Shown: piece by piece, positions 22,389 to 39,758 of the stretch
Layout of the letters: each line of letters starts with the position of its first letter
How positions within the stretch are numbered: the first letter of the stretch is position 1
Source of the DNA: Niabella ginsenosidivorans
GTDB lineage: Bacteria > Bacteroidota > Bacteroidia > Chitinophagales > Chitinophagaceae
DNA: 64,000 bases
Assembly (NCBI RefSeq): GCF_001654455.1
Contig: NZ_CP015772.1
Span: 4,588,001 to 4,652,000, forward strand
Direction: 5' to 3'
The notes under the pieces: generated by a model
The model's input: the letters and a program-made list of their open reading frames with translations, nothing else
Told to the model about the DNA's origin: nothing
The model's database searches: none
Made by a program: the position numbers and the translations under genes

Positions 22389-23714
22389 TCATTTACCCGA
22401 CCGGATCGTAAATACAGGCAGCGCTTTTTTCCATTGGGGGCCAACGGTTGTCCTTAACCAGAAAGGGATTCTTTTATTTTCCGGCAGCACCCAAATTCCA
22501 TATTTATTTATCTGCAGGCTTTTATTTTTTACAGTAGTAAACCCATCCATGCCGGGTGTTCCCAAAACCTTATTGCCCGTTATCAGGGAGTTCAGCGGCT
22601 TTTCTTTCTTATCTAACAACAACTGCGGCATAACTATATAATTATTTTTAATAGTTATGCTTTCCGGGGCTACCGTTCTTTTATCATTTTTCCCCGCACC
22701 GATCACAAAGGCATTCTTACAATGAATGATATAATTATTTTCAATAACTGCGTCTTTCACCTGCCAGTATTCATTCAGCTTTGGATCTTTAAAAGTGTTC
22801 ATGATGGAAATAGCTGCCCGCAGATCGGTTCCTGTTGTTTTATACAGATAATTGCCGGCAACTGTATGACGCTCTCCTATGATCCGTATACCGCCGGTAT
22901 TGGGTTGATCATTCCCTATAAAATAATTACTATCCACCGTATTATCATTCCCGTGCCGCAGCGTTACTGTTCCATCACATTCATAAAAAAGGTTTTCCCC
23001 GATCCGGTTATGACAGGATTTCACGGAAATAACTTCTATTTCTCCATCACATCTGTCAAAAATATTCTGTTGCACCAATGTATAGGAATCGTGCATCGAC
23101 CATTCACTGGTACCGATCCGGATGCTCTCACCGCCATTAGCTCCTAAAGGAGGCCTTGGCCCAAAATAATTGTTCTGTATGATATGATGATTAGGCGTAT
23201 CGGACAGCCAAACGACCAGTGTTGTGCCCTGGTGCTCCTTCCCGGTCAGCTCACAATGATCTACACTATTATAGCTGCCATAGAGCGATACCCATTTGTA
23301 ATCCGTTTTTTTATCAGGCGGGTTATAATTTACGATAGCGGTATTGGTCAGCCTGCAATGGGATGCCGTTTTTGAAAAGATGATCACATCGTCATTTAAT
23401 GAATAGCCATTGGTAAAATACAGCCCGTTCACAACCAGCCAATGCCCGTCAATTTTTAAATTGGAATTTCCGGAGAGGATGAGCTTGCCGGGTTGACCTG
23501 CCATTAATACAACCGGTTTTGCTTCCGTTCCTGTTCCTTTAAAATTGATCTGCGCATCCTTCCAACTGGTGCCCAGCATCAGTACCGTATCACCGGGCAA
23601 TAATACAAGGCGGTTTATTTCAGCAGCATTATTAACAGGATACGTTTTAGCCTTTACATATAATCCTGTAAAAAGAAAGGCTAAAAGACAAATTACAATG
23701 CGGAAATGCATCAT
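22389..23714 (-). CDS. PL6 family alginate lyase, single domain, secreted
   Basis: A 441-residue secreted right-handed beta-helix protein of polysaccharide lyase family 6. Signal peptide about residues 1-22 (ends VKAKT). Family landmarks: N-G-G-E-S-I-R-I-G at 193-201, the catalytic Lys232 in EVISVKS and the catalytic Arg253 in TLRHGN, arranged as in chondroitinase B and AlyGC. PL6 enzymes cleave the 1,4 bonds of alginate by beta-elimination. It is the last gene of the alginate operon, 10 bases after the second PL6 gene. Chondroitin or dermatan as substrate is possible within PL6, but the surrounding genes favour alginate. Confidence 0.88.
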   Translation of the reverse strand: MMHFRIVICLLAFLFTGLYVKAKTYPVNNAAEINRLVLLPGDTVLMLGTSWKDAQINFKGTGTEAKPVVLMAGQPGKLILSGNSNLKIDGHWLVVNGLYFTNGYSLNDDVIIFSKTASHCRLTNTAIVNYNPPDKKTDYKWVSLYGSYNSVDHCELTGKEHQGTTLVVWLSDTPNHHIIQNNYFGPRPPLGANGGESIRIGTSEWSMHDSYTLVQQNIFDRCDGEIEVISVKSCHNRIGENLFYECDGTVTLRHGNDNTVDSNYFIGNDQPNTGGIRIIGERHTVAGNYLYKTTGTDLRAAISIMNTFKDPKLNEYWQVKDAVIENNYIIHCKNAFVIGAGKNDKRTVAPESITIKNNYIVMPQLLLDKKEKPLNSLITGNKVLGTPGMDGFTTVKNKSLQINKYGIWVLPENKRIPFWLRTTVGPQWKKALPVFTIRSGK

Positions 23715-23724
23715 TCAATTGTAT

Positions 23725-26058
23725 TTATTCAATGACCAGGGATGCGCCCAAAGGCTTCCTGTCTGATGATTTTGCAGGTGCGGGCAAATCTTCTTTTAAA
23801 TTGAAATCATATAGCGGCGGGTTTACAAAAACCGGAGCTACGTTGTAAATATCCTTACCCGGGGCCTTTCCATAGAATGACTCAATTTTACCGGAACGGT
23901 AAAAATCGCAATAGTTCACATGAATATTATCCCACCGGTATTCCCGGAACTCAATGCTTCTGCCACCCCTGCCACTTGATGAAAAAATACTATTCGTTAT
24001 CCGTGCATTTTGCACGCCGATCAGTTTTACCACACTCCCCTGCTCCATATTGTTCACCTCGCTAAAGGTACAATGGTCAATAAACACAGCAGGGCCGGTA
24101 GTGCTTTCATCATTCCCTCCGCGGTATACATTAATAGCTGACCCTAATACCTCGGAAAATACACAGTTTTGTATGACAACGTTCTCCGCACCATACAAGC
24201 CCTTGTCTTCTTTTTCTTCGGCAATATTTACTGCTATGCCTGAAATATTCCGGAATAACGAATTACGGATGATCACAGAATCCGCATAAGTGGCTTTTGT
24301 TGCCCTGAAGCCGGCATAGCTGCCCTCATTATAATTATAAAAGGCACAGCTATTTATAACCAATTTGTAGTGCCTGTTCATAGGCGCTGATGTGCTCCTG
24401 ATACCGGACCGTACATCCGCATAACTTTCAAAAGCCCCGTTAAAGCTGATGTTCCTGGCGGTTAATGCGCCGCCGTTCTCAATGATCATAAAGGCATCCA
24501 AAGACTGATAAGAGGTGTTGATCAGCACCGGATTTTTATGGAACGGATTGCTGCCTTCAATCGTTATTGGTTTATTGATTAAAATCTCTTTATCCAGCTT
24601 ATAATAACCCGTATCACTTAAAACGATCCGGTCTCCGGGCAATGCCTGTTGTATCAGTTCATTGATCTTACCGGCCTCAGCGGCCTTTACTTTAAAAACC
24701 TTAGGGTTTCGGGCTGCTGCCTTTTCAGCAGGATGATACCATAGGGCGCCTGCATCAGACCTGTTGATCAGCTGTATCTTATTCACATCGGCCCCGTAAT
24801 TGGGGCTATACGGTAACAGCACACCATTTTTCCGGACAGTGTCAACTGTTGCAGCGGTAAAACCCGCTGTAACAGGGAATTGAGTTTTTGCTGCAACCGC
24901 ATTATCCTTAAACAGGATGCCACCATCCCTGTTTTCATCTGTATACGGCTTTCCTTGTGGATCAACCACCAGGTTCTTATTAAATAATACACGCTCCGGT
25001 GCAAGTATGCGCTCTTCATCCTTGGCGGCGCCAAATAAAACAGATGCGCAGTTAATAAATGTATTGTTGGAAATGCGGACATCCGTAACCTGGTAATACC
25101 GGTTGATCAATGAATGGGGCACTCCGTTCAATACAGCCAGCGCCGAACGGAAATTAACGCCTGTAAGGTCTTTAAAAATATTATTGGTTACCGTATGGCC
25201 GGGATTAATGACCCTTACACCACCGGTAAAGGGCTGATCATTTCCCAAAAAAATATTTCCACTGACAAGGTTTTTAGAGCCGTGACGCAATACCAATCCA
25301 CCCTCGCACTCGTAAAAAACATTATGGCTTACATTATTTTCTCCAGATTTTATGGAAACAACTTCCACCTCGCCATTACAACGCTCAAAATAATTATGAA
25401 CGATCTGCGTATGGGAGGCGGTCAGCGAATAGCGGGCAACACCAATGCGGATCGATTCACCACCATTGGAACCCAGCCGCTGCCTGCCTTTAAAATAATT
25501 GGAATCGATGCTGTGATCATTCTCCCGGCTGCGTTCATCATTGAGTTCTGCAATTAAAGTAGGCCCTGCATTCAGTTTATCAACAAAAGTATTATGATCC
25601 ACACGGTTGTGCCTGCCCCAAAGACAGACCCAAACGTCTTCAGAAAGCCTTGCAGGCTGGCTGTAGTTTTCAATAACGCACTGCGTAACGCGGCAGTGGT
25701 TGGCCAGCTTATTTTCATCAAGACAAAACTCAATGACAGCCCTGCGTGGCGTATGCCCATTGCTGAAATGCAGGCCGCTGATAACAATATACTGCCCGGC
25801 AAGCCGGATGTATGAGCTTCCCGTAAGCACGGCCCCGCCCGGGTGTTGCGGCCTGATAACAATGGGATGCTCCTGTGTGCCGTTTGCTTCAATTTTTATA
25901 GCAGCATCCTGCCACTGTTTATCTGCAAGCAGGATCGTATCACCTGGTTTACACGCTTTCAGCGCCGTATTCAGTTCGCTGACATTGGCAACCGGTATGG
26001 AGCGCGCATGAAGCTGCGCTACAAATCCCGAAAAAACGATCCAAAAAAAATATTTCAT
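23725..26058 (-). CDS. PL6 family alginate lyase with a second C-terminal beta-helix domain
   Basis: 777 residues. Signal peptide (residues 1-18, ends LHARS), an N-terminal PL6 beta-helix at about 20-430 with NGGESIRIG at 198-206, Lys237 in VVSIKSG and Arg258 in VLRHGS, then a second right-handed beta-helix at about 450-760 (KINELIQQALPGDRIVLSD...). The layout matches the two-domain exolytic AlyGC type, in which the C-terminal helix helps form the active-site end. It sits 6 bases after the surface lipoprotein gene and 10 bases before the smaller PL6 gene, so the two lyases are made together and probably differ in M/G block preference. Confidence 0.88.
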   Translation of the reverse strand: MKYFFWIVFSGFVAQLHARSIPVANVSELNTALKACKPGDTILLADKQWQDAAIKIEANGTQEHPIVIRPQHPGGAVLTGSSYIRLAGQYIVISGLHFSNGHTPRRAVIEFCLDENKLANHCRVTQCVIENYSQPARLSEDVWVCLWGRHNRVDHNTFVDKLNAGPTLIAELNDERSRENDHSIDSNYFKGRQRLGSNGGESIRIGVARYSLTASHTQIVHNYFERCNGEVEVVSIKSGENNVSHNVFYECEGGLVLRHGSKNLVSGNIFLGNDQPFTGGVRVINPGHTVTNNIFKDLTGVNFRSALAVLNGVPHSLINRYYQVTDVRISNNTFINCASVLFGAAKDEERILAPERVLFNKNLVVDPQGKPYTDENRDGGILFKDNAVAAKTQFPVTAGFTAATVDTVRKNGVLLPYSPNYGADVNKIQLINRSDAGALWYHPAEKAAARNPKVFKVKAAEAGKINELIQQALPGDRIVLSDTGYYKLDKEILINKPITIEGSNPFHKNPVLINTSYQSLDAFMIIENGGALTARNISFNGAFESYADVRSGIRSTSAPMNRHYKLVINSCAFYNYNEGSYAGFRATKATYADSVIIRNSLFRNISGIAVNIAEEKEDKGLYGAENVVIQNCVFSEVLGSAINVYRGGNDESTTGPAVFIDHCTFSEVNNMEQGSVVKLIGVQNARITNSIFSSSGRGGRSIEFREYRWDNIHVNYCDFYRSGKIESFYGKAPGKDIYNVAPVFVNPPLYDFNLKEDLPAPAKSSDRKPLGASLVIE

Positions 26059-26064
26059 ATCTGC

Positions 26065-27351
26065 CTATTTCTGCACATAAATATCAAAAGTAACCGTAGA
26101 GCTTCCTGCAGACAACACAAATGATTTGGCCCGTAGCAAACAATTACGGAAAGTTCCATCTTCTTTGGGAATACGTACCCATAATAAATAAGCCCCGTCA
26201 GGATTTAGCTCTCCTGTGTTTGTACTGATCTTAGCGGTGTTACCGCCGGGAACACTGATGCCATTAAAAAAGTCATCTTCAGCCAGGTCAGGAATATTGT
26301 TTGCATTAAATCTCGCATAAATAGCGTCAACTGCATCGGAAGAACCCGGCACCAATATTTTGACTTTAACCGCCTTTAATAAAAGAGGATCTGCTATTGC
26401 CCATTCCGTACCGTTGCATTTATAATTTTTGGCGATGTTTTTTGCGTTACCCGGACTATAAAGCGAAAGCACATTATCCTTACTGCCATAAAGCAGCAAA
26501 TCCATATCAGCATCGCTCAGCGCTTCTCCGGATGGCAGTTCACAACTGCCTAACAGTGTACCTGTTGCTGCCACAAACGCATTATTGGTTGCAAAGCCCT
26601 GCGCGTTCATGGTTACGTCCTTGTAAACAGTATAGGGTAATACAGGAATTGTAATAACCGCTTCGGCCGCGAGGTCATAATTATCGACCACCTGTACTTT
26701 CAGATTGGCAGCTTTATCCCTGTAAGTATAGTTATAGTCTACATCATATGATGTGGCATTCTTCAGATTGGTGATGCTATCCACTTTTGTAAAGCTGCCG
26801 GTAGCATCATCATAAATATAAATGGTTTGAATACCGTTTTGCGACAGTGCTTTGCCCGTAACATGAATTTGCCCGTCATTACCAGGCAACAGGCTTGCAG
26901 GAAAATTTTGCAGTTCCGGTAAAGGCGGCGTGAACGGGGTTATTTTAATGGAGTCCTGGTGATAGGAATTATCCCGGTGCTTTATCATCAGCTTAAGCCC
27001 TGTGGCTGCCGACATATCTATTTTTGAGAAAACAGCCGGTGATACACCCATAGCCACATCGTTTTCACTGCCGTCCGGCGGAAAAAAAACAGTTACCACC
27101 GAATCGGTGCTATTGCTGCGCACCAGGTATACATATACCTGGTTTACGCCTGCCGGGGACGCTATCTGCGCCGTAATGCTGTCCTGCGGCGAAAATTTTT
27201 TGGTGGCAGTATTGTACTGATACGCCACAGCCGTAACCTTATCAGCGCTTTCCCTGTCAGTTATATTTTGGTTATAGTCCTTTTTGCAGGCAGGCAGGAA
27301 CATACAAAAAAAGAGTGTTGCTACAACCAGGAAGGAACAGAACATTTTCAT
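26065..27351 (-). CDS. Surface lipoprotein of the alginate locus (glycan-binding type, uncharacterised)
   Basis: A 428-residue lipoprotein with lipidated Cys near residue 22 (FLPACKKDYNQ). It lies in the place of SusE, 17 bases after susD. The N-terminal 230 residues look like tandem Ig-like domains (AYQYNTATKKFSPQDSITAQI, QNFPASLLPGNDGQIHVTGKAL); the C-terminal part (VYKDVTMNAQGFATNNAFVA...) is rich in beta-strands and could be the glycan-binding module. I do not recognise a named family. The role as surface alginate-binding protein is inferred from position and lipobox. Confidence 0.75.
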   Translation of the reverse strand: MKMFCSFLVVATLFFCMFLPACKKDYNQNITDRESADKVTAVAYQYNTATKKFSPQDSITAQIASPAGVNQVYVYLVRSNSTDSVVTVFFPPDGSENDVAMGVSPAVFSKIDMSAATGLKLMIKHRDNSYHQDSIKITPFTPPLPELQNFPASLLPGNDGQIHVTGKALSQNGIQTIYIYDDATGSFTKVDSITNLKNATSYDVDYNYTYRDKAANLKVQVVDNYDLAAEAVITIPVLPYTVYKDVTMNAQGFATNNAFVAATGTLLGSCELPSGEALSDADMDLLLYGSKDNVLSLYSPGNAKNIAKNYKCNGTEWAIADPLLLKAVKVKILVPGSSDAVDAIYARFNANNIPDLAEDDFFNGISVPGGNTAKISTNTGELNPDGAYLLWVRIPKEDGTFRNCLLRAKSFVLSAGSSTVTFDIYVQK

Positions 27352-27368
27352 TTTGAAAAGATTTTAGG

Positions 27369-28958
27369 TTAATACCCGGTATTTTGTTCAATCGGGATTT
27401 CATTATTGGTGTCTATTTCCCTTTGGGGTATCGGCAGCAGTAATTTATCCTTTGTAACATTGCCCTGTAAGGTTTCCAATGGTATTTTCGGGCTGATCCT
27501 GGAATAAAACACATCGTACTCCTCTGCAAAATGGTCTTTGATCATTTGCACCGCATCGCCCAGGCGCTGCATATCAAAGAAGCGCTGGTTCTCAAAGGCA
27601 AATTCCAGTCTCCTTTCATTCAGCAGGGCTTTGGTAAAGCCGGATGCGCTGTTGATAGCGCTGTCCCCGCCTGAAGGATATTTGTAAAATCCGGCAGAAA
27701 AATCGCCGGTGCCTGTATAATCTATAGCTCCGGCACGCTGCCTTACCTGGTTGATGATTCCAACAGCAACACCTGACGGCCCGTCAAAGCCAACCGCCTC
27801 CGCTTTCATTAAAAGCACATCGGAAAACCGGATCACGGGGAAATCGTTTTCCGCGTCATAGCTTACCGCAACCGTGGAAAGGAATTTTTTTACATACGGT
27901 TTTGTAGTGTTGTAAACTGCTACAGTAACATCTTTACGGGCATCTGATCCTGACGATGTGGAAGTTTTAAATGCCGCCTGGATGGAAGTAGTGGGAAAAT
28001 TGTACCCTTTACCGTCACCGGCCACAATAGCGCTGCCACTACCGGTAGGCGCAAAAAGATTGGCAAAAGGGGACCCCAGGTTAAAGCCACCTGCTTTGTA
28101 TCTTACGGCAAAAATAATTTCCCGGTTCATTTCATTGGATACAGAGAACACATCTGCATAAGACGGCAGGAGCCCATACCCGCTGTTTGTAATGATATCA
28201 TCAAGCAACATGAGCGCATCGGCTTTTCTTCCTAATGTAAGATACACCTTTGCCAGCAGCGCTTTTGCCGACCATATGTTTACACGGCCCAGGTCCGTTG
28301 CCGCTATCTGGCTGTAACTGATCCGGGGCAAAATACTTTGGGCGGTATTCAGATCGGCCATAATAAAATTATAGATATCTGTGGCGCTGCTACGCCCTAC
28401 CTTCTTGGACGTTTGGGGATCCTCCGGTTCGGAGATCAGGAAAACACCACCAAATAACCGTACCAGGTTAAAATAATGATAAGCCCGCACTATTAAGGCT
28501 TCACCGGCCAGTTGCTTTTTCTGATCATCATTTAACTGTGCGGTGGCCGTTCCAAAATTATCCTGGCCATTACTGAATGTAACACCAAGGCTTCCTAAAA
28601 CATAGTTAACAGCCCGTATATTCTTATAGGCAGCCAGCCAGTAATCATAAACATCGCTGTGCGTGGCATTTAAGGTAAACATATCCAGGTCGTTCAGCTC
28701 TATATTGTCAACGCTGGAAGTGTTGGGCACACCCTGTAAAGAATTATCGCTTCTCAGGTCGGTAAACATCCACTCGTTATACAAAGGCCCCTGCATTCCA
28801 TTATAGCAGCCTGCAAGCGCTGTATTTACCTCGTTATAATTTTTATAGAATGCTCCTGCACCTACATTGGATATGGGATCAATATCTATTATTTTATTAC
28901 AGGAAAAAATAAATATTGAAAAAATGACGGATAGGGTTGTATATAAAAGCTTTTTCAT
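27369..28958 (-). CDS. SusD/RagB family outer membrane lipoprotein (alginate locus)
   Basis: A 529-residue SusD homologue with lipidated Cys20 (FIFSCNKIIDIDPIS), the TPR region (ALIVRAYHYFNLVRLFGGVFLI) and the C-terminal signature (LLNERRLEFAFENQRFFDMQRLGDAV, LPIPQREIDTN). It forms the lid of the SusC pore and binds the incoming oligosaccharide. The gene follows susC by 67 bases and precedes the surface lipoprotein gene by 17. Its partner genes indicate alginate oligosaccharides. Confidence 0.93.
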   Translation of the reverse strand: MKKLLYTTLSVIFSIFIFSCNKIIDIDPISNVGAGAFYKNYNEVNTALAGCYNGMQGPLYNEWMFTDLRSDNSLQGVPNTSSVDNIELNDLDMFTLNATHSDVYDYWLAAYKNIRAVNYVLGSLGVTFSNGQDNFGTATAQLNDDQKKQLAGEALIVRAYHYFNLVRLFGGVFLISEPEDPQTSKKVGRSSATDIYNFIMADLNTAQSILPRISYSQIAATDLGRVNIWSAKALLAKVYLTLGRKADALMLLDDIITNSGYGLLPSYADVFSVSNEMNREIIFAVRYKAGGFNLGSPFANLFAPTGSGSAIVAGDGKGYNFPTTSIQAAFKTSTSSGSDARKDVTVAVYNTTKPYVKKFLSTVAVSYDAENDFPVIRFSDVLLMKAEAVGFDGPSGVAVGIINQVRQRAGAIDYTGTGDFSAGFYKYPSGGDSAINSASGFTKALLNERRLEFAFENQRFFDMQRLGDAVQMIKDHFAEEYDVFYSRISPKIPLETLQGNVTKDKLLLPIPQREIDTNNEIPIEQNTGY

Positions 28959-29025
28959 CCGTGTATTTTTTTTATTGTTTTTTAATCGTATGCATTACGG
29001 TTTGTGTCCCTGTTTCAAAATCTGT

Positions 29026-32000
29026 TCAGAAGCTCAGGTCAATACCAAACGTATAAGTGCGCATAATGGGGAACGCGCCACGTTGGTAACCGCTGATCAG
29101 CGGCGAATTATACAAACCGCTGGTTACTCTTGCCTCCGGGTTGATGCCCCTGTAACCTTTGCCCATTATATAGAAAAGATTATCGCCGGACGCATATATT
29201 CTTAAGCCGTTTAAGCCGATATGCTTTAAGGTTTTGCTTTGAAACTTGTAGCCGATGATCAGGTTTCTTAAGGAGGCATAAGAAGCACTTTCCAAAACAT
29301 AATCTGTCAGCATCCAGTTTTCCCCGTTGGTAAAATAAGGTGTTTTGCCATCGCCGGGATACATAGCGCTTACCCAGCGCTGATCAGTATTGACCAGCTT
29401 ATTGAACTTTTTAGTTTCATTATAATACAGGTCGCCATTTATCAGCTTCCCACCCTGTGAGCCCTGTATCAGCATGCTGAAATCAAAATTTTTATAGGTA
29501 ATGGTGTTGTTAAAACCCCATGTAAAATCAGGGAACGGATTGCCTAACGGTACGCGGTCGTTGGCATCGATCGCATTATCACCATTTATATCTACGTACT
29601 TTAAACCGCCGGCCTGAAAATACTTTGATAAGGTACTGGTAAGCCCGGCAGCCTTTGCATCAGCAATTTCCTTATCTGAAAGCCAGACCCCGTTTGTCTT
29701 ATAACCAAAAAACTGGATAGCAGGCTGGCCTACAATGGCAGCATACACTTCGTTACGCTCCCCATAATTATACTGGTAAGGCTCACCACCTAATGCAAGC
29801 AATGTATTTTTATTTCGGGTGAAGTTGACGGAAGTGCTCCATGTTATATTTTTCGTTTGCACCGGCACACCGCCTAATTCAATTTCCACCCCTTTATTAC
29901 GCAGCTTACCAATATTATTAATATACTGGTTAGAGCCGGTAAAGGACATGGTAGCCTGGTTGTACAGCAATCTGTCTGTAACCCTGTTATACCAGTCTAA
30001 AATTAACGTGAGGCGATTGCTGAACATACCCAGGTCGAGACCTGTGTTAAACTCGAACGTGCGCTCCCAGGTGATCAGCGGGTTGGCCAGTGTATTGGAG
30101 TTGGGCGATAAACCCAGTATTACAGACCCGGTACCGGTACCAAAAGCATAATTAGCCGGATACAGCAGATCCATATAAGAGAAACTCGGTATCCGGTTAT
30201 TTCCTGTAGCGCCATAGCTGGCCCTTATCTTTAAATTATTGACGCTTTTAACAGCTTTGAAAAAAGGCTCCTGGCTAATGGCCCAGCCACCGGATATGGA
30301 AGGGAAATACCCCCATTTATGTCCGGGTGCAAAATAAGAGCTGCCGTCTGTCCGGAAACTTGCCGCAACCAGGTATTTGCTTTTATAATCATAGGTAACG
30401 CGGCCCAGGTAAGACAACAATCCTATTTTATCCTTTAAGGTATAGGTAAGCGCCGGATCGATCTGGCCAGCCTGGTTCATGGTTTTAAAATCTTCTGTAG
30501 GAAAATTACGCCCTACCATATTTGACGTATCCTTCCAGGTCTGCTGTGCCGTAAAACCCACTAACGCCGTAATATTATGATTGCCGAACCGTTTATTATA
30601 GTTTAAAGTATTTTCCCAAAGCACATCCTTGTAATTCCTGTCATTAAAAATGGCGTAATTCAGATCCCCGTCCTTTTCTGCATTGCTTTGCACAAATGTC
30701 CGGTCGTTCTGCTGCATATAATACCCTGACAGTGCAGTTTTAAAGACCAGCCGGGGAATGATCTCATAAGACAGATCCACACCGCCTAACATACGGTAGG
30801 ATTCCACATATCTTTTTTCCCTGTCAGCAATAGAAAGCGGTGTATTATTGGATGTGGACCAGGGTATAACCGGGCCATTGCTGGACCACAGTGTACCATC
30901 CGGCATCCTGCCGGAATAGGGAAGTCCGTTAAAATGCCGGGCCTGGGCATAATCCCCGGGTAAAATATCGGCCCATTGGGGATTCTGTTGTACAAACTGC
31001 GCTGTATAATTGGTATGGTATAACGGAACAAATGAGTAGGTCCGGAAGTAGTCTGTATAATTAACAGTAGGCCGGTTTGTTTTAATATAGCTGGGGTTAA
31101 AATTGAAGCTCAGTTTTACTTTCTTGCTCAGATTTGCGTCCAGCCTGGCCTTCATGGTTCCCCGGGTGTTATCGCTGAATTTCATAACACCCACATCTTT
31201 CTGATATCCTGCGCTCAGGTAATACTTTACTTCTTTTTTACCACCCGATACGCTGAACTCTGCATTGGATATATTTGAGTTTTGCAGGCCCAGCTCCTGC
31301 CAGTTGGTGGGCGCACCGGTGATCTGGTTTTCCAGGATATAGGCGGCCTGCTCCTGGTCTGATATCAGGTTCCGCCTGTTTGCAGCAACTGTTGTATCAT
31401 TGGCCCGCATAGCTGCTTCGCGATACAGTTTCTCAGCATACTCGCTAAAGGTCATAATAGGGTTCAGCTTATAGGGCTTCCTGGTACCGTAATACACTTT
31501 AAAATTATACCTGGGGCGGTCTGCTGCCCCGCTTTTGGTGGTAATAATAATTACGCCGTTGGCCGCACGCGACCCGTAAATGGCCGCTGCTGCCGCATCC
31601 TTTAAAACCTCTACAGAAGCCACATCCTGCGGATTCACAAAGGACAATCCATCCGGCACCGGGTAGCCGTCTACCACTACCAATGGGGATGAATTGGCAC
31701 TGATGGAGCTGAAGCCCCGTATGCGCACCACAGGATCGGCGCCTACTTCTGAAGTCACATTCTGAATGGTAACGCCGGCTATTTTACCAATAAGTGCATT
31801 ATCCAGCCGTGAGGTTGGGATCTCATCCAGGTTTTTATTAACCAGCTTGCTGACCGCACCGGTAATGGCAGACCGGGATTGTGTACCATAACCAATGACC
31901 ACCACTTCATCCAGGTTGTTCATCTTTTGGGTAAGGGTCACCTTCACCGTGCCCGCTTCAGTAATGCCCCGGGCAAACGGCAGATACCCTATATGGTCAA

Positions 32001-32229
32001 ATTGAAGGATTTTGCCCTTTTCCACAGTAATGCTAAAGGCACCGGTGGAATCAGTAACTGTTCCGCCTTTTGCATCTTTTATGGTTACGGAAACACCGCC
32101 CAGGGGTTCTCCTGAAGTGCTTGTTACAACGCCCTTCACTTTTACTTTGGTTTGCGCATAGCCTGAAGCAGGCAGCCATACCATAAGGGCAAAGACAAGT
32201 ATATAAATAAGGCAAGATTTCAGTTTCAT
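29026..32229 (-). CDS. SusC/RagA family TonB-dependent transporter (alginate locus)
   Basis: 1067 residues: signal peptide (1-26, ends GYAQ), carboxypeptidase-regulatory-like domain (about 28-102), TonB-box region with the SusC motif NNLDEVVVIGYG, plug domain (RLDNALIGKIAGVTI, IRGFSSISANSSPLVVVDGYP, AAIYGSRAANGVIIITTKSG) and a large beta-barrel ending FGIDLSF. It brings alginate oligosaccharides into the periplasm. Its upstream region holds a consensus Bacteroidota promoter whose -7 box overlaps the first of two tandem GntR-type operators, so it starts its own regulated transcription unit of five genes. Confidence 0.95.
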   Translation of the reverse strand: MKLKSCLIYILVFALMVWLPASGYAQTKVKVKGVVTSTSGEPLGGVSVTIKDAKGGTVTDSTGAFSITVEKGKILQFDHIGYLPFARGITEAGTVKVTLTQKMNNLDEVVVIGYGTQSRSAITGAVSKLVNKNLDEIPTSRLDNALIGKIAGVTIQNVTSEVGADPVVRIRGFSSISANSSPLVVVDGYPVPDGLSFVNPQDVASVEVLKDAAAAAIYGSRAANGVIIITTKSGAADRPRYNFKVYYGTRKPYKLNPIMTFSEYAEKLYREAAMRANDTTVAANRRNLISDQEQAAYILENQITGAPTNWQELGLQNSNISNAEFSVSGGKKEVKYYLSAGYQKDVGVMKFSDNTRGTMKARLDANLSKKVKLSFNFNPSYIKTNRPTVNYTDYFRTYSFVPLYHTNYTAQFVQQNPQWADILPGDYAQARHFNGLPYSGRMPDGTLWSSNGPVIPWSTSNNTPLSIADREKRYVESYRMLGGVDLSYEIIPRLVFKTALSGYYMQQNDRTFVQSNAEKDGDLNYAIFNDRNYKDVLWENTLNYNKRFGNHNITALVGFTAQQTWKDTSNMVGRNFPTEDFKTMNQAGQIDPALTYTLKDKIGLLSYLGRVTYDYKSKYLVAASFRTDGSSYFAPGHKWGYFPSISGGWAISQEPFFKAVKSVNNLKIRASYGATGNNRIPSFSYMDLLYPANYAFGTGTGSVILGLSPNSNTLANPLITWERTFEFNTGLDLGMFSNRLTLILDWYNRVTDRLLYNQATMSFTGSNQYINNIGKLRNKGVEIELGGVPVQTKNITWSTSVNFTRNKNTLLALGGEPYQYNYGERNEVYAAIVGQPAIQFFGYKTNGVWLSDKEIADAKAAGLTSTLSKYFQAGGLKYVDINGDNAIDANDRVPLGNPFPDFTWGFNNTITYKNFDFSMLIQGSQGGKLINGDLYYNETKKFNKLVNTDQRWVSAMYPGDGKTPYFTNGENWMLTDYVLESASYASLRNLIIGYKFQSKTLKHIGLNGLRIYASGDNLFYIMGKGYRGINPEARVTSGLYNSPLISGYQRGAFPIMRTYTFGIDLSF

Positions 32230-32278
32230 AATATATGTATTAGGATAAACCAGGAAATCGCAATCGCTTTTTATAAAT

Positions 32279-32305
32279 TTGGTTTACCAAAAATTGGTTT
32301 ACCAA
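32279..32305. promoter_or_regulatory. Double GntR-type operator in front of the susC-like gene
   Basis: The 12-base palindrome TTGGTTTACCAA occurs twice (32279-32290 and 32294-32305), separated by AAA, centre to centre 15 bases. Its TTGGT/ACCAA arms are like the TGGTnnnACCA operators of FadR-subfamily GntR proteins. The identical pair is found upstream of the gntR gene at 39704-39730. The upstream copy reaches into the -7 box at 32303-32310, so binding should repress. Confidence 0.85.
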
Positions 32306-32334
32306 ATTTATTGACACTAAAGTTCCCGGCCAAA
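32303..32334 (-). promoter_or_regulatory. Promoter of the susC-like/PL6 operon (TTTG-N20-TAAATTTG)
   Basis: On the minus strand TTTG (32331-32334) is followed after 20 bases by TAAATTTG (32303-32310), a full match to the Bacteroidota -33/-7 consensus. The last three bases of the -7 box are also the first bases of the operator pair. Confidence 0.75.
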
Positions 32335-32414
32335 TTTTTTTAGGCAGGTTGTGTTCACTTCAATCTCAGCAAAACGCCGGCAGCTGATCGTTTATAAAGC
32401 GGAGCCGGCTACCA

Positions 32415-33167
32415 TCAGGAAAAGCTAACGCCCCCGTTTATGTCAATATTGGCGCCGGTAATAAAGCTGGCCTCATCAGAAGCAAGGTAAGCCACCAGGT
32501 CCGCTACTTCTTCTGCTTTTCCTTCCCGTTTTAAAGGAGTGCCATTGGCCACATTTGCCCTTACCTCGGGTTTGGTAAACGTATCATGAAAGGTAGTAGC
32601 GATCATGCCGGGCGCTACTGCATTCACTCTTACATTCTTAGGGCCGAATTCTTTTGCCAGTGCCCGGGTATAGGTCATTAAAGCTCCTTTGGAGGTGGCA
32701 TAGGCGCTGGCACCCGGCCCGCCCCCATCGCGCCCTGCAAGCGAGGTAAAATTGATGATTGCTGCACCCGGTGGCATATACGGTGTTACCGCTTTCACAC
32801 AAAGGAACACCGATTTCAGGTTCAGGTCCATCACCTGATCCCAAAAGGCCTCATCCATTTCGGCAGTTGTTTTCCGGGCAACCAACCCGCCGGCAACGTT
32901 CACCAGTATATGTATAGCATCTCCAAAAGCGTTCCTGGCAGCGCTGACCATATTGGCCACATCAGCCGCTTTGGTCATATCTCCACTTACAATAATGCCT
33001 TCCCCACCGGCTTCTTTTATTTGTTGCAACGTTGCTTCCCCGTTCTCTTTGCTGCCATAATAATTTACCACCACCTTTGCGCCTTCCTTTGCCAGCTTTA
33101 CAGATACGGCACGGCCAATGTCCCTGGAACCACCGGTAACGATGGCTACTTTGTTTTTAAATCTCAT
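32415..33167 (-). CDS. SDR family reductase, probable DEH reductase of the alginate pathway
   Basis: A 250-residue short-chain dehydrogenase/reductase: cofactor motif TGGSRDIG at 12-19, NVAGG, catalytic Ser in the FTSLAGRDGG region and the Y-x-x-x-K motif SAYATSK. In alginate pathways an SDR reduces 4-deoxy-L-erythro-5-hexoseulose uronate (DEH) to 2-keto-3-deoxy-D-gluconate with NAD(P)H. The assignment to this step comes from context: it follows the uronate transporter gene by 4 bases and shares the operon with KdgF and PL17. A role as another sugar or acyl reductase cannot be excluded from sequence alone. Confidence 0.85.
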   Translation of the reverse strand: MRFKNKVAIVTGGSRDIGRAVSVKLAKEGAKVVVNYYGSKENGEATLQQIKEAGGEGIIVSGDMTKAADVANMVSAARNAFGDAIHILVNVAGGLVARKTTAEMDEAFWDQVMDLNLKSVFLCVKAVTPYMPPGAAIINFTSLAGRDGGGPGASAYATSKGALMTYTRALAKEFGPKNVRVNAVAPGMIATTFHDTFTKPEVRANVANGTPLKREGKAEEVADLVAYLASDEASFITGANIDINGGVSFS

Positions 33168-33171
33168 ACTT

Positions 33172-34470
33172 CTATTGTTTTAATTTATCCGGATTTGATG
33201 AAATAAATCTTATGGTGATCCATGAAAGCGGTACCAAAACTGCAGCCAGCACAAAAAAAGAAGTATAGCCCGTTTTGGTGATCACCGGCACTGCCCATGT
33301 GGTCATCAGCGTTCCGATAACGGCCGCTGTGCCCCCCATGCCGGCAACGGTTCCCACATTCTTACCATTGAAATAATCGCTGGGTAGTGTCTGAATATTA
33401 TTGATCAGGAACTGGAATCCAAAGAGCGTGCACCCGATCAGCACCATTGCAAACATGGGCATGCTTTTTAACTGATCTAAAAAATAAACAATAGCAACCA
33501 GCGACAACAGCATGATCAGGCAGCCCAGCCCTATTGCATTTTTACGGGCCTTATGCGCTTCCACTCCTTTTTTGATCTGCCAGGAAGAATGGAAGCCGCC
33601 CAGCAAACCGCCAATGGCCGCAAATAAATAGGGCACCCATGCAAATGCGCCTATTTGCTGAATGTCGAACAGGAATTGCTCTTTCAAAAAAGTGGGCAGC
33701 CAGGTTACAAACAACCACCATACCGGGTCAATAAAAAAGCGGGCGCCGATAATGCCCCAGGTGTTCTTTATTGCCAGCAGCTCTTTCCATGTCAACACCT
33801 TTTCTTCCCTGCCTTCAGCAATATTCTTTTTTGTTTCATCAGAAAAAATATATTCTTTTTCTGATGCGGTTATATTCGGATGCGTGGCCGGCGTCGATTT
33901 ATTGATCAGCAGCCAGGGCAGCAGCCAGAGAATGCCCAGTATGCCGATCAGCACGAAGGTCATTTTCCAGCCGAACGCAACATAGACCAGTGCGATAATA
34001 GGCGCGGAAATAACCGATCCCAGAGAAGCGCCGGCGCCAAAGATGCCCTGGGCAATGGCGCGTTCCTTTGCAGGAAACCATTCCGCATTGCTTTTGGTGG
34101 CCCCGGGCCAGTTGCCCGCCTCAAAAAAGCCCAGGAAAAAACGGAATACATTAAAGGACAGCAAACCGCGGGCAAATGCATGCAGCGCAATAGACAGGCT
34201 CCAGCCTACTATTGACAAGCCCATTCCCAGTCTGGTGCCGATATTATCCATGATCTTGCCCATAAAGGTCTGGCCAATGGCATAGGCGATCATGAAGAAG
34301 GTGGTAATTAAGGCCAGGGCATTTTTGCTATCGGCCGCTGCAATACCAAAATCATGATAGATATAAGGCCATAAAATATTAATAGCGCTCCGGTCAATAT
34401 AATTGATGATCGTTGCAAGTGCGATCAACCCGATAATGTACCAGCGCAATCCTCTTATCTTCATGATCAT
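33172..34470 (-). CDS. MFS transporter, hexuronate (ACS/ExuT) type
   Basis: A 432-residue major facilitator protein with about twelve membrane helices. Features of the anion:cation symporter (ExuT/GudP) group are seen: INYIDRSAINILWPYI in helix 1, FFEAGNWPGATKSNAEWFPAKERAIAQGIFGAGASLG in helices 4-5 and WWLFVTWLPTFLKEQF after the central loop. It should carry unsaturated uronate monomers (DEH) or short oligosaccharides over the inner membrane. Its start overlaps the end of the beta-helix gene by 4 bases, and the SDR gene begins 4 bases after it, which implies coupled expression. Confidence 0.88.
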   Translation of the reverse strand: MIMKIRGLRWYIIGLIALATIINYIDRSAINILWPYIYHDFGIAAADSKNALALITTFFMIAYAIGQTFMGKIMDNIGTRLGMGLSIVGWSLSIALHAFARGLLSFNVFRFFLGFFEAGNWPGATKSNAEWFPAKERAIAQGIFGAGASLGSVISAPIIALVYVAFGWKMTFVLIGILGILWLLPWLLINKSTPATHPNITASEKEYIFSDETKKNIAEGREEKVLTWKELLAIKNTWGIIGARFFIDPVWWLFVTWLPTFLKEQFLFDIQQIGAFAWVPYLFAAIGGLLGGFHSSWQIKKGVEAHKARKNAIGLGCLIMLLSLVAIVYFLDQLKSMPMFAMVLIGCTLFGFQFLINNIQTLPSDYFNGKNVGTVAGMGGTAAVIGTLMTTWAVPVITKTGYTSFFVLAAVLVPLSWITIRFISSNPDKLKQ

Positions 34471-35477
34471 TTTATTTGTGTTAGCGGAATATTGCTTACC
34501 CCCTTACCCGCATGCTGCGCAGTATTATCTGCATAAACAACAGTGCCGGTTACTTCCCCGTTACTGCTTTTCAGTCTTACATTAATGGCATAGCCCGGGG
34601 CATTTACTTCAGATATATTATTCTTAAATACATTATTATTGCCCCAGCCGGCGTAAGCGCAGTTTACCTGGTAGCCATCCAGGAAGTTGGGAGCAGACGG
34701 GTTGATGCCCTTATTATTTTCAATGCGGTAATTATTGCCTTTGATATCCATCCAGCTATCCGCACTGTTCTCGCCGCTTATGCCTGCTGCATTAAAAGTA
34801 TTGCCATCAATCAGTCCGCCCGTTGTTCCCTCCTTCACATCAATACACTCAGCGGTTACGTTGGGACCAATGGTATTATTCAATACTTTATTATCATCGC
34901 AATGATCCGGTTTACCGGCTGTATATTTTTCCCAGTTATTTTTAGCGCTGCCGATATAAATGCCTTCTCCATAACCGGGCCGGTTCAGCCCTGTGTTATT
35001 GATCGTTGAATTTTGAATGATATTGTGACTGCTGAACGTTCTGAAATGCACTCCCTCCTCACCTGTCTGCGTTACCAAAATACCATCTATGATATTGTTA
35101 TCAGCGCCATCTGTCATAAGCCCTTTCAACCCGTTTTTTAAAGTAAAGCCCCTCAAATGCCAGTAGCTTGCTTTTAATTGCAATACATACCCCGTGGTTA
35201 TATCACCTGCATCCAGCACCGCATTCCTGCTACCGGTTAACACGATGGGATTTTTTTCGCTGCCCGGGTTTTCAATAACAAATTTTCCGGAATAAACAGC
35301 ATCTTTTAAAACAATGGAATCGCCCGGTTTTGCAGCAGACAGCGCCGCTTTTAACTCAGCAGCGGTAGCAACAGTGATCACACGTACGTTTTCAGACGGA
35401 AGCACTGCTGCCATTTTATTTTTAGCGCTGCATGCAGTGCATAATATAATGAGTAAAGCGGCAATAGATCCTTTCAT
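34467..35477 (-). CDS. Parallel beta-helix lipoprotein, candidate polysaccharide lyase
   Basis: 336 residues with a lipoprotein signal (lipidated Cys16) and a right-handed beta-helix from about residue 35 to the end (VATAAELKAALSAAKPGDSIVLKD, HNIIQNSTIN, DDNKVLNNTIG). The helix entry resembles PL6, but the PL6 Lys/Arg pair is only half present: Lys215 (ECIDVKEG) occupies the Lys place, while no RHG motif follows and the equivalent turn reads WMDIKGN (Lys246). It may be a distant lyase (PL9- or PL31-like) or an accessory binding protein. It lies in the alginate operon between the esterase and the transporter genes. Confidence 0.7.
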   Translation of the reverse strand: MKGSIAALLIILCTACSAKNKMAAVLPSENVRVITVATAAELKAALSAAKPGDSIVLKDAVYSGKFVIENPGSEKNPIVLTGSRNAVLDAGDITTGYVLQLKASYWHLRGFTLKNGLKGLMTDGADNNIIDGILVTQTGEEGVHFRTFSSHNIIQNSTINNTGLNRPGYGEGIYIGSAKNNWEKYTAGKPDHCDDNKVLNNTIGPNVTAECIDVKEGTTGGLIDGNTFNAAGISGENSADSWMDIKGNNYRIENNKGINPSAPNFLDGYQVNCAYAGWGNNNVFKNNISEVNAPGYAINVRLKSSNGEVTGTVVYADNTAQHAGKGVSNIPLTQIK

Positions 35478-35573
35478 CTGTTCATTTTTTATTTGCAGCT
35501 TCGCTGCGATCTTTATTTGTCAGATGGAACGCCTCATCATCATTCCTGTTTAATAATCTTTTATAGGGGCGTT

Positions 35574-36437
35574 TCATATACCGAGCTCTTTTAAAAAATG
35601 AATGATCTCTTTATTGACCCTCCTGTTTTCCTCAGCGCTGAACTTGCCATGCAAGCCGCCGGGAACGGTGATGAATTGACTTTTAACACCTGCTTCATCC
35701 AGCTTTTTCTTTAGATCCACCGATTGCTGATAGGGAACCGTGGGGTCGGCATCGCCATGCACCATAAAAACAGGCGGGCTTGTTTTGTTTACCAGGTATA
35801 AGGGCGAAACGGACCGGATAAAATTTTCATCATTTGCTCTATTCCCCAGCCACAGACCTACCGATTTGCTTTTCCAGGCCTTTACATCGGTAATGCCATA
35901 TTTATCAATGATCGCTGCAACCTTTACCGGATTTGCTGTGGAACAGTTCGTATCAAACCCGTGCTCATTGCCCAGTAAACCGGCTACCAGGGCCAGGTGG
36001 CCGCCGGCAGAGCTACCCATAATGACGATTTTGTTTATATCAATATTTAATTCTGTTGCATGATTGACCAGGTAAATAACGGCACAGCGCGCATCTTCTA
36101 CAGCAGCAGGAGCTGTTGCCTGCCCGCTCAGCCGGTACTCTATATTGGCAACTGCATAGCCGTTTTTGAAGAAGGTACTGAATCCGGTCTGTGATTCCTT
36201 GGTGCCATGATTCCAGCCGCCGCCATGTATATTAATAATAACAGGGGTAACCCCTTTTTCTTTTGGAGGTAAATAAAGATCCATTTTGCCCTCCCAGCTG
36301 CCTGCCTTTGTATAAATGACATTTAGCTGTTCGGAATATCCCGGGGGGTAGACTACTTTCTTTACTGCTGCCGTATCCTGCGCTATTGAAGCAATGACCG
36401 GCAGGATGCAATAAAGGAATAACAGTACCTGTTTCAT
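35574..36437 (-). CDS. Secreted alpha/beta hydrolase, acetylesterase-like
   Basis: The ATG at 36437 gives 287 residues (a TTG codon 9 bases upstream is the longer option). Signal peptide, then an alpha/beta-hydrolase of the acetyl-xylan esterase/BD-FAE-like group: oxyanion motif INIHGGGW, nucleophile motif MGSSAGGH, late Asp in MVHGDADPTVP and His in PGGLHGKF. It would remove acyl groups from a polysaccharide in the periplasm. Its place between the KdgF and beta-helix genes suggests a role in deacetylating bacterial (acetylated) alginate, which is inference. Confidence 0.8.
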   Translation of the reverse strand: MKQVLLFLYCILPVIASIAQDTAAVKKVVYPPGYSEQLNVIYTKAGSWEGKMDLYLPPKEKGVTPVIINIHGGGWNHGTKESQTGFSTFFKNGYAVANIEYRLSGQATAPAAVEDARCAVIYLVNHATELNIDINKIVIMGSSAGGHLALVAGLLGNEHGFDTNCSTANPVKVAAIIDKYGITDVKAWKSKSVGLWLGNRANDENFIRSVSPLYLVNKTSPPVFMVHGDADPTVPYQQSVDLKKKLDEAGVKSQFITVPGGLHGKFSAEENRRVNKEIIHFLKELGI

Positions 36438-36446
36438 GCTTAACAA

Positions 36447-36785
36447 TTATTTTAAAAAATCTTCCCTGTGCGGACTAAACACGTCTATTAACAGGCCGGC
36501 TTCTTTACAAACGCAACCGTGTACGATATGCGGTGGTACATAATAGCCATCGCCCTTTTTAATCGTTTTCTTTTCATCACCAATGGTCAGTTCAAAAACA
36601 CCGCTTTCCACATAGGTAACCTGTGTATGAGGGTGCTGGTGCAGCGCTCCAACGGCCCCTGCTTCAAACTTTGCTTTGACCAGCATGATCTGATCATCAT
36701 AACCATATACCTGCCTTTGCACGCCGTTGCCCAGATCCTCCCAGGTTATTGCATCTTCAATTTGAAAAAGATCGCTTTGTAACAT
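36447..36785 (-). CDS. kdgF: KdgF-like cupin, unsaturated uronate linearisation
   Basis: A 112-residue single cupin. Metal ligands are visible in the LHQHPHTQ motif (His49, His51, Gln55) and in VPPHIVHG (His89), the pattern of KdgF, which catalyses ring opening of 4,5-unsaturated monouronates from alginate or pectin to the keto form used by the reductase. Its ATG overlaps the stop codon of the PL17 gene (TAATG), so product and next enzyme are coupled in translation. There is no signal peptide, so it acts in the cytoplasm. Confidence 0.88.
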   Translation of the reverse strand: MLQSDLFQIEDAITWEDLGNGVQRQVYGYDDQIMLVKAKFEAGAVGALHQHPHTQVTYVESGVFELTIGDEKKTIKKGDGYYVPPHIVHGCVCKEAGLLIDVFSPHREDFLK

Positions 36786-38920
36786 TATTTCAGATTTATA
36801 AAATTATTTTTATCATTATAGTTGATCGTTACCCGGTATTCCTTCTTTCCGTTAACCCAAAACACAATGGTCTTTTTCCCTTCAGAGTTGTTTATAAGCG
36901 TTACACCCGATATGGCCGGAACCGCTCCCGTTACCGTTTCGTAAACCGGATCGGTAACCCCATGTGTTTCTGTAATGCTGACCAGGGTAGCATTGCCGCT
37001 GCTTTTACGGGAAAGCATGAAAGCCCTGCTTGTGGTAAGGTTCATTGCCGGGTCATTAGCCCCTGTGGTCACAAAGTTTACCGTCAGCGGATTTTCAGAA
37101 GTAAAATGAGTGGTATAAAAACGGTTCTTATTTAAAAAGGTTATAGAACCGGCCTCCTTATTGAGCGCAGCGGCAGCATTCAGCCATATATGCTGATAGC
37201 CGAACTTGTCGCCCATCGGTTTCAGTTCACCGGCAAACGCTTTGAACTGAAAAGAAGCATCCACCAGCTGGCCATTGTACCAGAACGGCAGATCGTATTG
37301 ATGCTCCCCGTTCGATAATGCGGTAAAAACATCCAGCAGCAATGGCTTTTTTAATTCAGGGATCGTTATCAGCGCCGTTACCCGGTTCAGTACCACGCCT
37401 TCATACGCATTTTTTTCTTCAGCGCTCATCACCTGCAACCCGGGTTTCGCATTAAAATAAACCAGATCAGGATGCGTGGCCTGCGCCTGTTCCAGGCTGC
37501 CTTTAAAATCGGATACCCTGTCTACCACCAATGTGTTATGTGCCACCGTTTGCTTGGCCCATGAATTATTTTCAGGCAGGTATCCACCACCCCCTTTTGA
37601 TTCTATATTTAAAAAACGTGCAGCGCCATAGTCGCTAAAGACTTCAGTACCGTTATCGTAATACAACAGGTTCAACCGGTCAAAATGACCATGTCCCATG
37701 CCCTGGGTGGTCGCTTTCAGCACCACGCATTGCTGGTCTGTATTTGGGCCGTCCCGTAAAATGCCAAGTCCGCCAGCCTTTCCGTCAGCACCATCGCTCA
37801 GCCATTCAGAAACATATTTAAACGGCGTTGCTTTTTTTTCATAGACTGCTTTTGCCACCTTTAAGCCTGCATCAGAAACAATGACCCGTCCCTGCTGTTG
37901 AGCAACATCCAGCAGGTCATTACTGTTATTAATATCACTATAGGCAATATCAACCCCGTACACCAGCTCCCAGGTTTCAGAAGTTTTATCTTTAATGGCA
38001 TCATTCAGAGGGAAAATGGCGCCGTTTGTATAGGTGCATTGCAGCATGCTGTTGATGGCTTTTGCAAGCAGCTTATTCCGGTACTCAAAAACATGCAGCC
38101 GGGGCTGATGGTTCTGTATGGCTTTTGCAAAGATCAAAAACGGGAAAAGCGCATAGCGCTGGTAGTAGGGACCCTCTGCATAATAGCCATCCGGGGAAAA
38201 CAGCTGATCCAGTTGCGCCCAGTAACCGCTTTTACCATCCAGCTTTGATCCTTTTAAGGCCATCTGCACATATTCAGGTTTGTTCAGTACATATCCGGTA
38301 AGGCCTACAGCAGCCAGGCACCAGGTTCCATGGTTATGAATGCTGTTAAATATATATGCACAATGCCCCGTAAAAAATTGCAGTATGGGAAGGAATAAAT
38401 GCGCTTCGATCTCCTCCCGGTCTTTTGGATCAATAGCATCATACACCAGATCATACCCCTGTATGGTATAAACCTGCCATACAAAATCATTCAGGCTCTG
38501 CCAGAAAATCCTGCCGCTTTCCTTATTATTTTTACGTGCGGGGTGCAGTGGCCAGCTTTCATACTTCGCAGCGTACTGCAACAGCAGCTCTTTTACATAA
38601 TCAGCATACTTTTTATTGCCCGTTAACTGATACACAATACCGCAGTTCAGGATGCCGGTATAATTTTTTTTATGCTGCTCGTGCGTAACGCCACCGCCCC
38701 CATCTTTTGGCACAGGTACGGTGACGGGCTGGGCTATTGCTGCATCTGCTGCTGCTTTTATTTCCCGGTAAGACCTTTTGAGCAACGGATACCGGTTAAC
38801 TCCTGCTCTAAGAGCCGGCACCTGTTCCCCAGTGATCATGATGCCGGGATGTTTTTGCCCGGACACCGCTAAAGAAAAAAGCAGGCAGGCGAAAAAGTAT
38901 ATAATTTTCAAATGGCGCAT
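36785..38920 (-). CDS. PL17 family oligoalginate lyase
   Basis: 711 residues: signal peptide (1-21, ends VSGQ), an N-terminal (alpha/alpha)-toroid alginate lyase domain (about 25-340) and a C-terminal heparinase II/III-like beta-sandwich (about 380-640). Active-site residues of the PL17 enzyme Alg17c can be placed: Asn196 and His197 in NHGTW, Tyr253 in EGPYYQRY, and His410/His412 in GMGHGHFDRL. The enzyme releases unsaturated monouronate from alginate oligosaccharide ends in the periplasm. It follows the gntR gene by 32 bases and overlaps kdgF. Confidence 0.92.
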   Translation of the reverse strand: MRHLKIIYFFACLLFSLAVSGQKHPGIMITGEQVPALRAGVNRYPLLKRSYREIKAAADAAIAQPVTVPVPKDGGGGVTHEQHKKNYTGILNCGIVYQLTGNKKYADYVKELLLQYAAKYESWPLHPARKNNKESGRIFWQSLNDFVWQVYTIQGYDLVYDAIDPKDREEIEAHLFLPILQFFTGHCAYIFNSIHNHGTWCLAAVGLTGYVLNKPEYVQMALKGSKLDGKSGYWAQLDQLFSPDGYYAEGPYYQRYALFPFLIFAKAIQNHQPRLHVFEYRNKLLAKAINSMLQCTYTNGAIFPLNDAIKDKTSETWELVYGVDIAYSDINNSNDLLDVAQQQGRVIVSDAGLKVAKAVYEKKATPFKYVSEWLSDGADGKAGGLGILRDGPNTDQQCVVLKATTQGMGHGHFDRLNLLYYDNGTEVFSDYGAARFLNIESKGGGGYLPENNSWAKQTVAHNTLVVDRVSDFKGSLEQAQATHPDLVYFNAKPGLQVMSAEEKNAYEGVVLNRVTALITIPELKKPLLLDVFTALSNGEHQYDLPFWYNGQLVDASFQFKAFAGELKPMGDKFGYQHIWLNAAAALNKEAGSITFLNKNRFYTTHFTSENPLTVNFVTTGANDPAMNLTTSRAFMLSRKSSGNATLVSITETHGVTDPVYETVTGAVPAISGVTLINNSEGKKTIVFWVNGKKEYRVTINYNDKNNFINLK

Positions 38921-38952
38921 TCGTTATAAAATAAGTACCGGATCAAAAAGAG

Positions 38953-39696: not shown

Positions 39697-39703
39697 ATAA
39701 ATA

Positions 39704-39730
39704 TTGGTTTACCAAAAATTGGTTTACCAA
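39704..39730. promoter_or_regulatory. Double GntR-type operator in front of gntR
   Basis: TTGGTTTACCAA at 39704-39715 and 39719-39730, separated by AAA, the same as at 32279-32305. The pair starts 7 bases before the gntR ATG and overlaps the -7 box. This is the evidence for autoregulation. Confidence 0.85.
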
Positions 39731-39758
39731 ATTTAGGAAGAATTCAATCAATCTCAAA
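39728..39758 (-). promoter_or_regulatory. Promoter of the gntR-PL17-kdgF operon (TTTG-N19-TAAATTTG)
   Basis: On the minus strand TTTG (39755-39758) and TAAATTTG (39728-39735) are 19 bases apart, a full match to the Bacteroidota consensus. The same -7 sequence and the same operator overlap are seen at the susC-like promoter. Confidence 0.75.

Follow-up and report, generated by a model that had tools for sequence, protein, structure and literature searches.

Paired operators within both promoters of an alginate locus of Niabella ginsenosidivorans point to an AusR-type repressor

Two alginate operons follow one another on the - strand of a 64,000-nucleotide stretch of the Niabella ginsenosidivorans genome (contig NZ_CP015772.1, positions 4,588,001 to 4,652,000; hereafter, the window), and the question raised by this locus is how the two might be switched on together. 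The first, gntR-PL17-kdgF-esterase-beta-helix-MFS-SDR (39696 to 32415), is followed by an operator array and then by the second, susC-susD-unknown-PL6-PL6 (32229 to 22389). An earlier note on the window had proposed that one duplicated GntR operator holds both operons together. AusR of Zobellia galactanivorans, the namesake of the regulators considered here, was reportedly described by Dudek et al. in 2020 in Nucleic Acids Research (NAR). The window system is a further AusR-type member, a kind of switch described before in marine bacteria, and we estimate a probability of about 0.87 that an AusR-type repressor switch acting on both operons explains the arrangement described below.

An operator pair within two promoters

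The 27-base pair TTGGTTTACCAA-AAA-TTGGTTTACCAA was found by exact match at both of the places given for it in the earlier note, AAA spacer included, with its copies 15 bp apart centre to centre (Table 1). Exact TTGGTTTACCAA accounted for 4 sites in the window. When up to two mismatches were allowed, there were 15 matches compared with a shuffle mean of 9.7, and 15 or more were reached in 7 of 100 shuffles; thus, among TTGGTTTACCAA matches in the window, the exact sites alone stand out. Simulated Markov-1 windows of 64 kb (n=20) contained 0 or 1 exact TTGGTNNACCAA each and a close pair in none.

Both arrays were fused to a promoter. On the - strand, each promoter reads TTTG-N19/20-TAAATTTGGTAAACCAATTTTTGGTAAACCAA, and the last TTG of the -7 box is the first TTG of the operator, a three-base overlap with the first copy in both arrays. 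The susC array is preceded by TTTG-N20-TAAATTTG and the gntR array by TTTG-N19-TAAATTTG, and the pattern TTTG-N19/20-TAnnTTTG occurred twice in the window when both strands were scanned, both times at the arrays. The overlap with the -7 box noticed earlier was thereby confirmed. In Flavobacterium psychrophilum, the -7 box is placed at -12 to -5 in the excerpted text of PMC9723704; if that holds here, the window arrays would span about -7 to +20, and transcription would be predicted to begin near 32298 and 39723. The same fusion was found in relatives: the -7 box TAnnTTTG started exactly 5 bases before the first copy, with the TTG in common, in 62 of 77 directed arrays, compared with a TAnnT rate of 4.0% (156/3927) at nearby upstream positions. 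Of the 15 arrays that lacked it, 4 belonged to the flavobacterial regulator clade (41 arrays) and 11 to the other regulators (36 arrays). In Flavobacteriaceae loci (e.g. L167, L173 and L174), roughly 305-316 bp lay between the susC array and the predicted start codon, compared with 50 bp in the window, suggesting a long leader before susC in those loci.

The regulator carries a GntR helix-turn-helix and an FCD domain, as members of the FadR subfamily do, and the operator palindrome, TTGGT-NN-ACCAA, is of the TKGT/ACMA type. FadR-subfamily sites are described in the excerpted text of a 2015 survey of GntR-family sites as TKGT/ACMA boxes in which 2 or 3 nt separate GT from AC (PMC4494728). Domains and palindrome together support the GntR/FadR-type operator that the earlier note had named. 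The best NCBIfam profile for the regulator was NanR, at 116.4 bits and under the cut-off of 260, a score that does not identify it as NanR. Residues D154, H158, H203 and H225 of the FCD domain were invariant in 97 of 97 regulators, and we take them to have a metal role. The predicted structure of the regulator (mean predicted local distance difference test score, pLDDT, 76.2; under 50 for residues 74-99, and 57-67 for the blocks that hold arm helix 3-11) was too weak for docking.

These features suggest a simple switch. The product of gntR would be an AusR-type repressor, with one dimer probably bound to each TTGGTNNACCAA copy. The first copy starts within the -7 box and the array covers the predicted transcription start, so that bound repressor would exclude RNA polymerase at both promoters. 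Binding of an alginate breakdown product, the likely ligand, to the C-terminal FCD domain would release the repressor, and the uptake and lyase operon (susC to PL6) and the intracellular operon (gntR to SDR) would come on together. Through the array in front of gntR, the repressor would limit itself; repression with autoregulation had been proposed from the letters alone, and the promoter-blocking position of the array at the regulator's own promoter supports it.

Reach of the paired site in the genome and in relatives

The host genome is one contig of 5,627,734 bases. The genome scan for the 27-base pair, suggested by the earlier note, returned two places at up to three mismatches, with or without free central bases, both of them the known arrays; the reversed pattern returned none. 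The pattern TGGTNNACCA-N1-30-TGGTNNACCA was likewise found at just the two array places. For single sites, TTGGTTTACCAA at up to one mismatch gave 52 matches, which were not read individually, versus 39 for the reversed control, and -7-fused sites at up to one mismatch gave 13/12 matches versus 26/25 for the control. Judged by the paired site, the predicted alginate regulon consists of these two operons; weak single sites elsewhere may add to it.

The expectation that genes for 2-keto-3-deoxygluconate (KDG) kinase and 2-keto-3-deoxy-6-phosphogluconate (KDPG) aldolase would stand behind the operator was not borne out. The single KDPG-aldolase-family gene, with a KDG-kinase-like gene beside it, belongs to a uronate operon far from the window, at about 4222-4226 kb, and both genes were rejected as regulon members for want of a convincing site: no operator site at up to one mismatch was found in the 30 kb round them (4214-4244 kb), and one intergenic single site with two mismatches lies at 4236544. 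NCBIfam matches in this operon were tagaturonate reductase, dehydratase, glucuronate isomerase, KduD, KduI and an MFS transporter, of which KduI and glucuronate isomerase alone reached their cut-offs. The operon (4222-4236 kb; KduD/KduI-like, kinase and aldolase) would have to process alginate-derived KDG. PfkB gave 9 matches in the genome, and two of the genes were inspected in the kinase search. A -7-fused single site at 4924073-4924088, with two mismatches to the palindrome, stands just before the likely ATG of a PfkB gene that is a ribokinase by NCBIfam, and falls inside the longest reading of that frame; it is a lead only and may be due to chance.

Across the family, the regulator was found at E <= 1e-40 in 19 of 294 genomes, host included, and in none of the five other genomes of the genus among those scanned. 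All 18 family loci had arrays or single sites (up to two mismatches per copy in arrays and one in single sites) close to where gntR, susC or kdgF begins. Among close relatives, with regulators 59-63% identical, 10 of 10 had an array of two or three copies before the first alginate-operon gene, spaced by 14-16 bp, plus 28 bp in G162 and a doubtful 13-bp copy in G085; four of these loci (G085, G002, G226 and G010) include a copy with two mismatches. In the eight further loci (42-47% identity), two single sites separated by 118-189 bp lay near the gntR start, in the interval between gntR and a divergent gene or almost in it. A DNA loop was considered for the 118-bp spacing of three of them (G269, G068 and G172); the other five have spacings of 124-189 bp. 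Searching the family for the pair at up to two mismatches returned 5 of 147 genomes, namely three alginate loci (host, G085 and G002) plus G135 and G101, and the reversed control matched in 4; a lone pair at this threshold is thus weak evidence.

From a scan of named genomes with a regulator alignment, 80 loci were taken out of at least 512 confirmed matches, and with 16 family loci and the window these made 97 (G010 and G068 were dropped as duplicates of L101 and L135). Close TTGGTNNACCAA pairs at up to one mismatch were present in 61 of these 97 loci, which had been selected by their GntR gene, compared with 0, 1, 2, 0, 0, 0 and 0 for seven control patterns. At the same threshold the set held 81 arrays, 64 of two copies and 17 of three, four of them without assignable direction.

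Several points weigh against a repressor switch at these arrays. Exact TTGGTNNACCAA occurs at 7 sites genome-wide, four in the two arrays and the other three inside open reading frames, with no enrichment over the reversed control (16), so that single sites by themselves carry no weight. The earlier note had named occurrence at many unrelated places as damaging to its proposal; the pair was confined to its two places. In addition, 36 of the 97 loci have no close pair at up to one mismatch, and pairing is thus not essential. The AusR operator was compared through its description in citing papers, seen as excerpts, and repressor binding and its effects on expression are read from sequence.

The gene content predicted from the letters agreed with Pfam, except that the supposed lipoprotein matches no Pfam family; partly similar proteins (30-34%) occur in 8 of 18 family loci. 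Beyond gntR lie a divergent sigma-70-family gene (39879-40454, + strand) and a gene for a cyclic nucleoside monophosphate (cNMP)-binding protein (41309-41893).

Table 1. Coordinates of operators, promoter elements and genes in the window
Feature	Position	Strand	Basis
-33 TTTG of gntR promoter, N19 to -7 box	39755..39758	-	
-7 box TAAATTTG of gntR promoter, TTG 39728-39730 common with first operator copy	39728..39735	-	consensus from PMC9723704
Operator array 2, before gntR; two TTGGTNNACCAA copies at 15-bp pitch	39704..39730	-	sequence match
gntR, GntR helix-turn-helix and FCD, putative AusR-type repressor, 247 aa	38953..39696	-	Pfam
PL17-like oligoalginate lyase (Alginate_lyase and Hepar_II_III_C)	36785..38920	-	NCBIfam oligoalginate lyase, 720.6 bits, under cut-off 1400
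Cupin, KdgF-like	36447..36785	-	Pfam; kdgF name from the earlier note, by context
BD-FAE / alpha-beta hydrolase esterase	35574..36446	-	Pfam
Beta-helix protein, weak Chondroitinas_B match	34467..35477	-	Pfam
MFS transporter	33172..34470	-	Pfam
SDR, probable 4-deoxy-L-erythro-5-hexoseulose uronate (DEH) reductase by context	32415..33167	-	Pfam
-33 TTTG of susC promoter, N20 to -7 box	32331..32334	-	
-7 box TAAATTTG of susC promoter, TTG 32303-32305 common with first operator copy	32303..32310	-	
Operator array 1, same 27-mer, in front of susC	32279..32305	-	sequence match
susC	29026..32229	-	Pfam
susD	27369..28958	-	Pfam
Protein without Pfam or NCBIfam match (lipoprotein of the earlier note)	26065..27351	-	
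PL6-like lyase (Chondroitinas_B)	23725..26058	-	Pfam
PL6-like lyase (Chondroitinas_B)	22389..23714	-	Pfam

Array pitch and regulator clades

The spacing of copies followed the regulator. In the flavobacterial clade (41 rows, support 100), 52 of 52 spacings were 13, 26 or 39 bp (45, 6 and 1, respectively), and outside it 43 of 46 were 14-16 bp, the other three being 27, 28 and 42. Pitch changed once on the regulator tree, with 60 of the 61 array-bearing loci classed (L099, which has a 27-bp spacing only, was omitted). The 41 directed flavobacterial-type arrays comprise 39 distinct sequences, stand before susC, gntR, lyase and MFS genes, and all keep multiples of 13 bp; degenerate middle copies, judged by eye, remain in register. 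A single change means that shared descent suffices as an account of pitch, whereas constancy over 39 sequences and several gene types argues for constraint. The earlier note had explained the 15 bp by two dimers set nearly one and a half helical turns apart. That argument is weakened, and a helical half-turn was rejected as the general reason, because 13 bp (about 1.24 turns) is kept just as strictly in the flavobacterial clade.

Two accounts of the dimers fit the same switch. Dimers on adjacent copies may touch and bind cooperatively, as NanR does on its repeat operator; we put this at even odds, and cooperativity at the paired site is plausible. The strict pitch of each regulator clade favors it, as do the N-terminal arms, which differ between the pitch classes; residues 32 (G/K) and 72 (T/S) separate the classes fully (28/28 versus 32/32). 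NanR dimers are cooperative, and their N-terminal extensions are proposed to touch and so link neighbouring dimers, according to the excerpted text of PMC8012715; NanR is also the top profile for the window protein. However, that match falls well under its cut-off, loci with single distant sites share the arm type of the 14-16 class, and pitch switched a single time in evolution. Alternatively, and with somewhat lower probability, the two dimers bind independently, the second copy raising occupancy only and the fixed pitch being inherited history. The many loci served by single sites, the sufficiency of shared descent and the tolerance of non-flavobacterial regulators for 14-16 bp are as this account would have it, but the unbroken 13-bp register across distinct sequences and gene types, kept even by degenerate middle copies, is not. 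Use of the site by some other regulator is very improbable, for although a gene of the sigma-70 family, starting at 39879, and a gene for a cNMP-binding protein lie nearby, the sites were recovered in loci selected by the GntR gene and fit the FadR-subfamily pattern.

Under the AusR-type switch, we also entertain the idea, which we consider unlikely, that the regulators read array pitch: neighbour dimers would touch through a clade-differing N-terminal arm at 13 bp or at 15-16 bp, and pitch rather than palindrome could separate two paralogous regulators in one cell. Lewinella cohaerens has both classes, a flavobacterial-type regulator with an array in 13-bp register (L170, whose outermost recognisable copies are separated by 39 bp) and a Saprospiria-type regulator at a 15-bp array (L108), and would be such a case; the locus there may simply have come in together with its array. 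The two pitch classes make spacing sensing by repressor dimers directly testable.

Origin of the locus and relation to known systems

Of the loci holding more than one directed array (n=14), only the window has two that match exactly, and the identity between its two array regions stops at the -7 box upstream. The simplest account would be that the susC array was copied locally into the gntR promoter. The gntR tree did not resolve the place of the window within a 19-row clade. An unrooted tree of five enzymes joined it to Sphingobacteriaceae (100/100), although the family set of the window, itself of Chitinophagaceae, includes Chitinophagaceae genomes; transfer of the alginate locus between families, in either direction, is likely. 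In the G172, G068 and G004 loci (L085-L090), several alginate enzymes are about as near to those of the window as those of nearer relatives are, and the regulator, which has single distant sites, comes from another clade (42-44% identity); the regulator seems to have been exchanged.

In its two-operon layout the window resembles Pedobacter ureilyticus, Pedobacter sp. ASV17 and Nubsella zeaxanthinifaciens (L096-L098), in which gntR-PL17-kdgF-est-bhel-MFS-SDR is likewise followed by an array. In L097, that array and the 27-mer of the window agree at every base, and the next frame has TonB-receptor domains. Unlike the window, these loci have a gntR array of 16 bp and other sequence, and a third array with further genes upstream of gntR (L096 3385-9901, L097 3413-9900 and L098 131-3897). 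Matches to a polysaccharide-lyase domain and to a secretion sorting domain were found for the genes behind the third array in L096 and L098, and a match to a SASA esterase domain in L096.

AusR of Z. galactanivorans is, in the excerpted text of PMC7874173, a GntR-family repressor of alginate genes that acts through one to three operator copies at promoters, and it is released from promoters by alginate products (PMC7874173 and PMC8286568, as excerpted). The window shares with it a GntR/FadR protein in an alginate locus, multiple operator copies, here double, and homology to Zobellia regulators. Z. galactanivorans is absent from the 80 loci, and the link to AusR itself is made through the genus. 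In three other Zobellia species, the regulator is accompanied by MFS and SDR genes, susC and susD, and TTGGTNNACCAA sites are present: arrays stand before susC, and a copy with one mismatch precedes gntR. Their regulators fall in the same tree as that of the window but in a different clade. They differ from the window in regulator sequence (39-40% identity), in pitch (13 versus 15 bp) and in having one recognisable copy (up to one mismatch) at the regulator promoter where the window has an array.

Escherichia coli NanR is also a GntR-type repressor, with three dimers on one repeat operator, but its operator consists of direct GGTATA repeats and not palindromes (PMC8012715, as excerpted). The 2015 survey, in its excerpted text, notes that many sites have additional half-sites at 7-12 nt from their centre, suggests oligomerisation, and counts no Bacteroidetes among its FadR-type regulators (PMC4494728). 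A literature search by title found no report on clade-specific array pitch among the titles retrieved. Measured against AusR as its citing papers describe it, what appears to be new here is a comparative rule of clade-specific array pitch and promoter-fused arrays. With TAnnTTTGGTNNACCAA as a usable site definition, repeated at clade-specific pitch, alginate regulons become readable from sequence, and AusR-type control is predicted outside marine flavobacteria, in Chitinophagaceae, Sphingobacteriaceae and Saprospiria.

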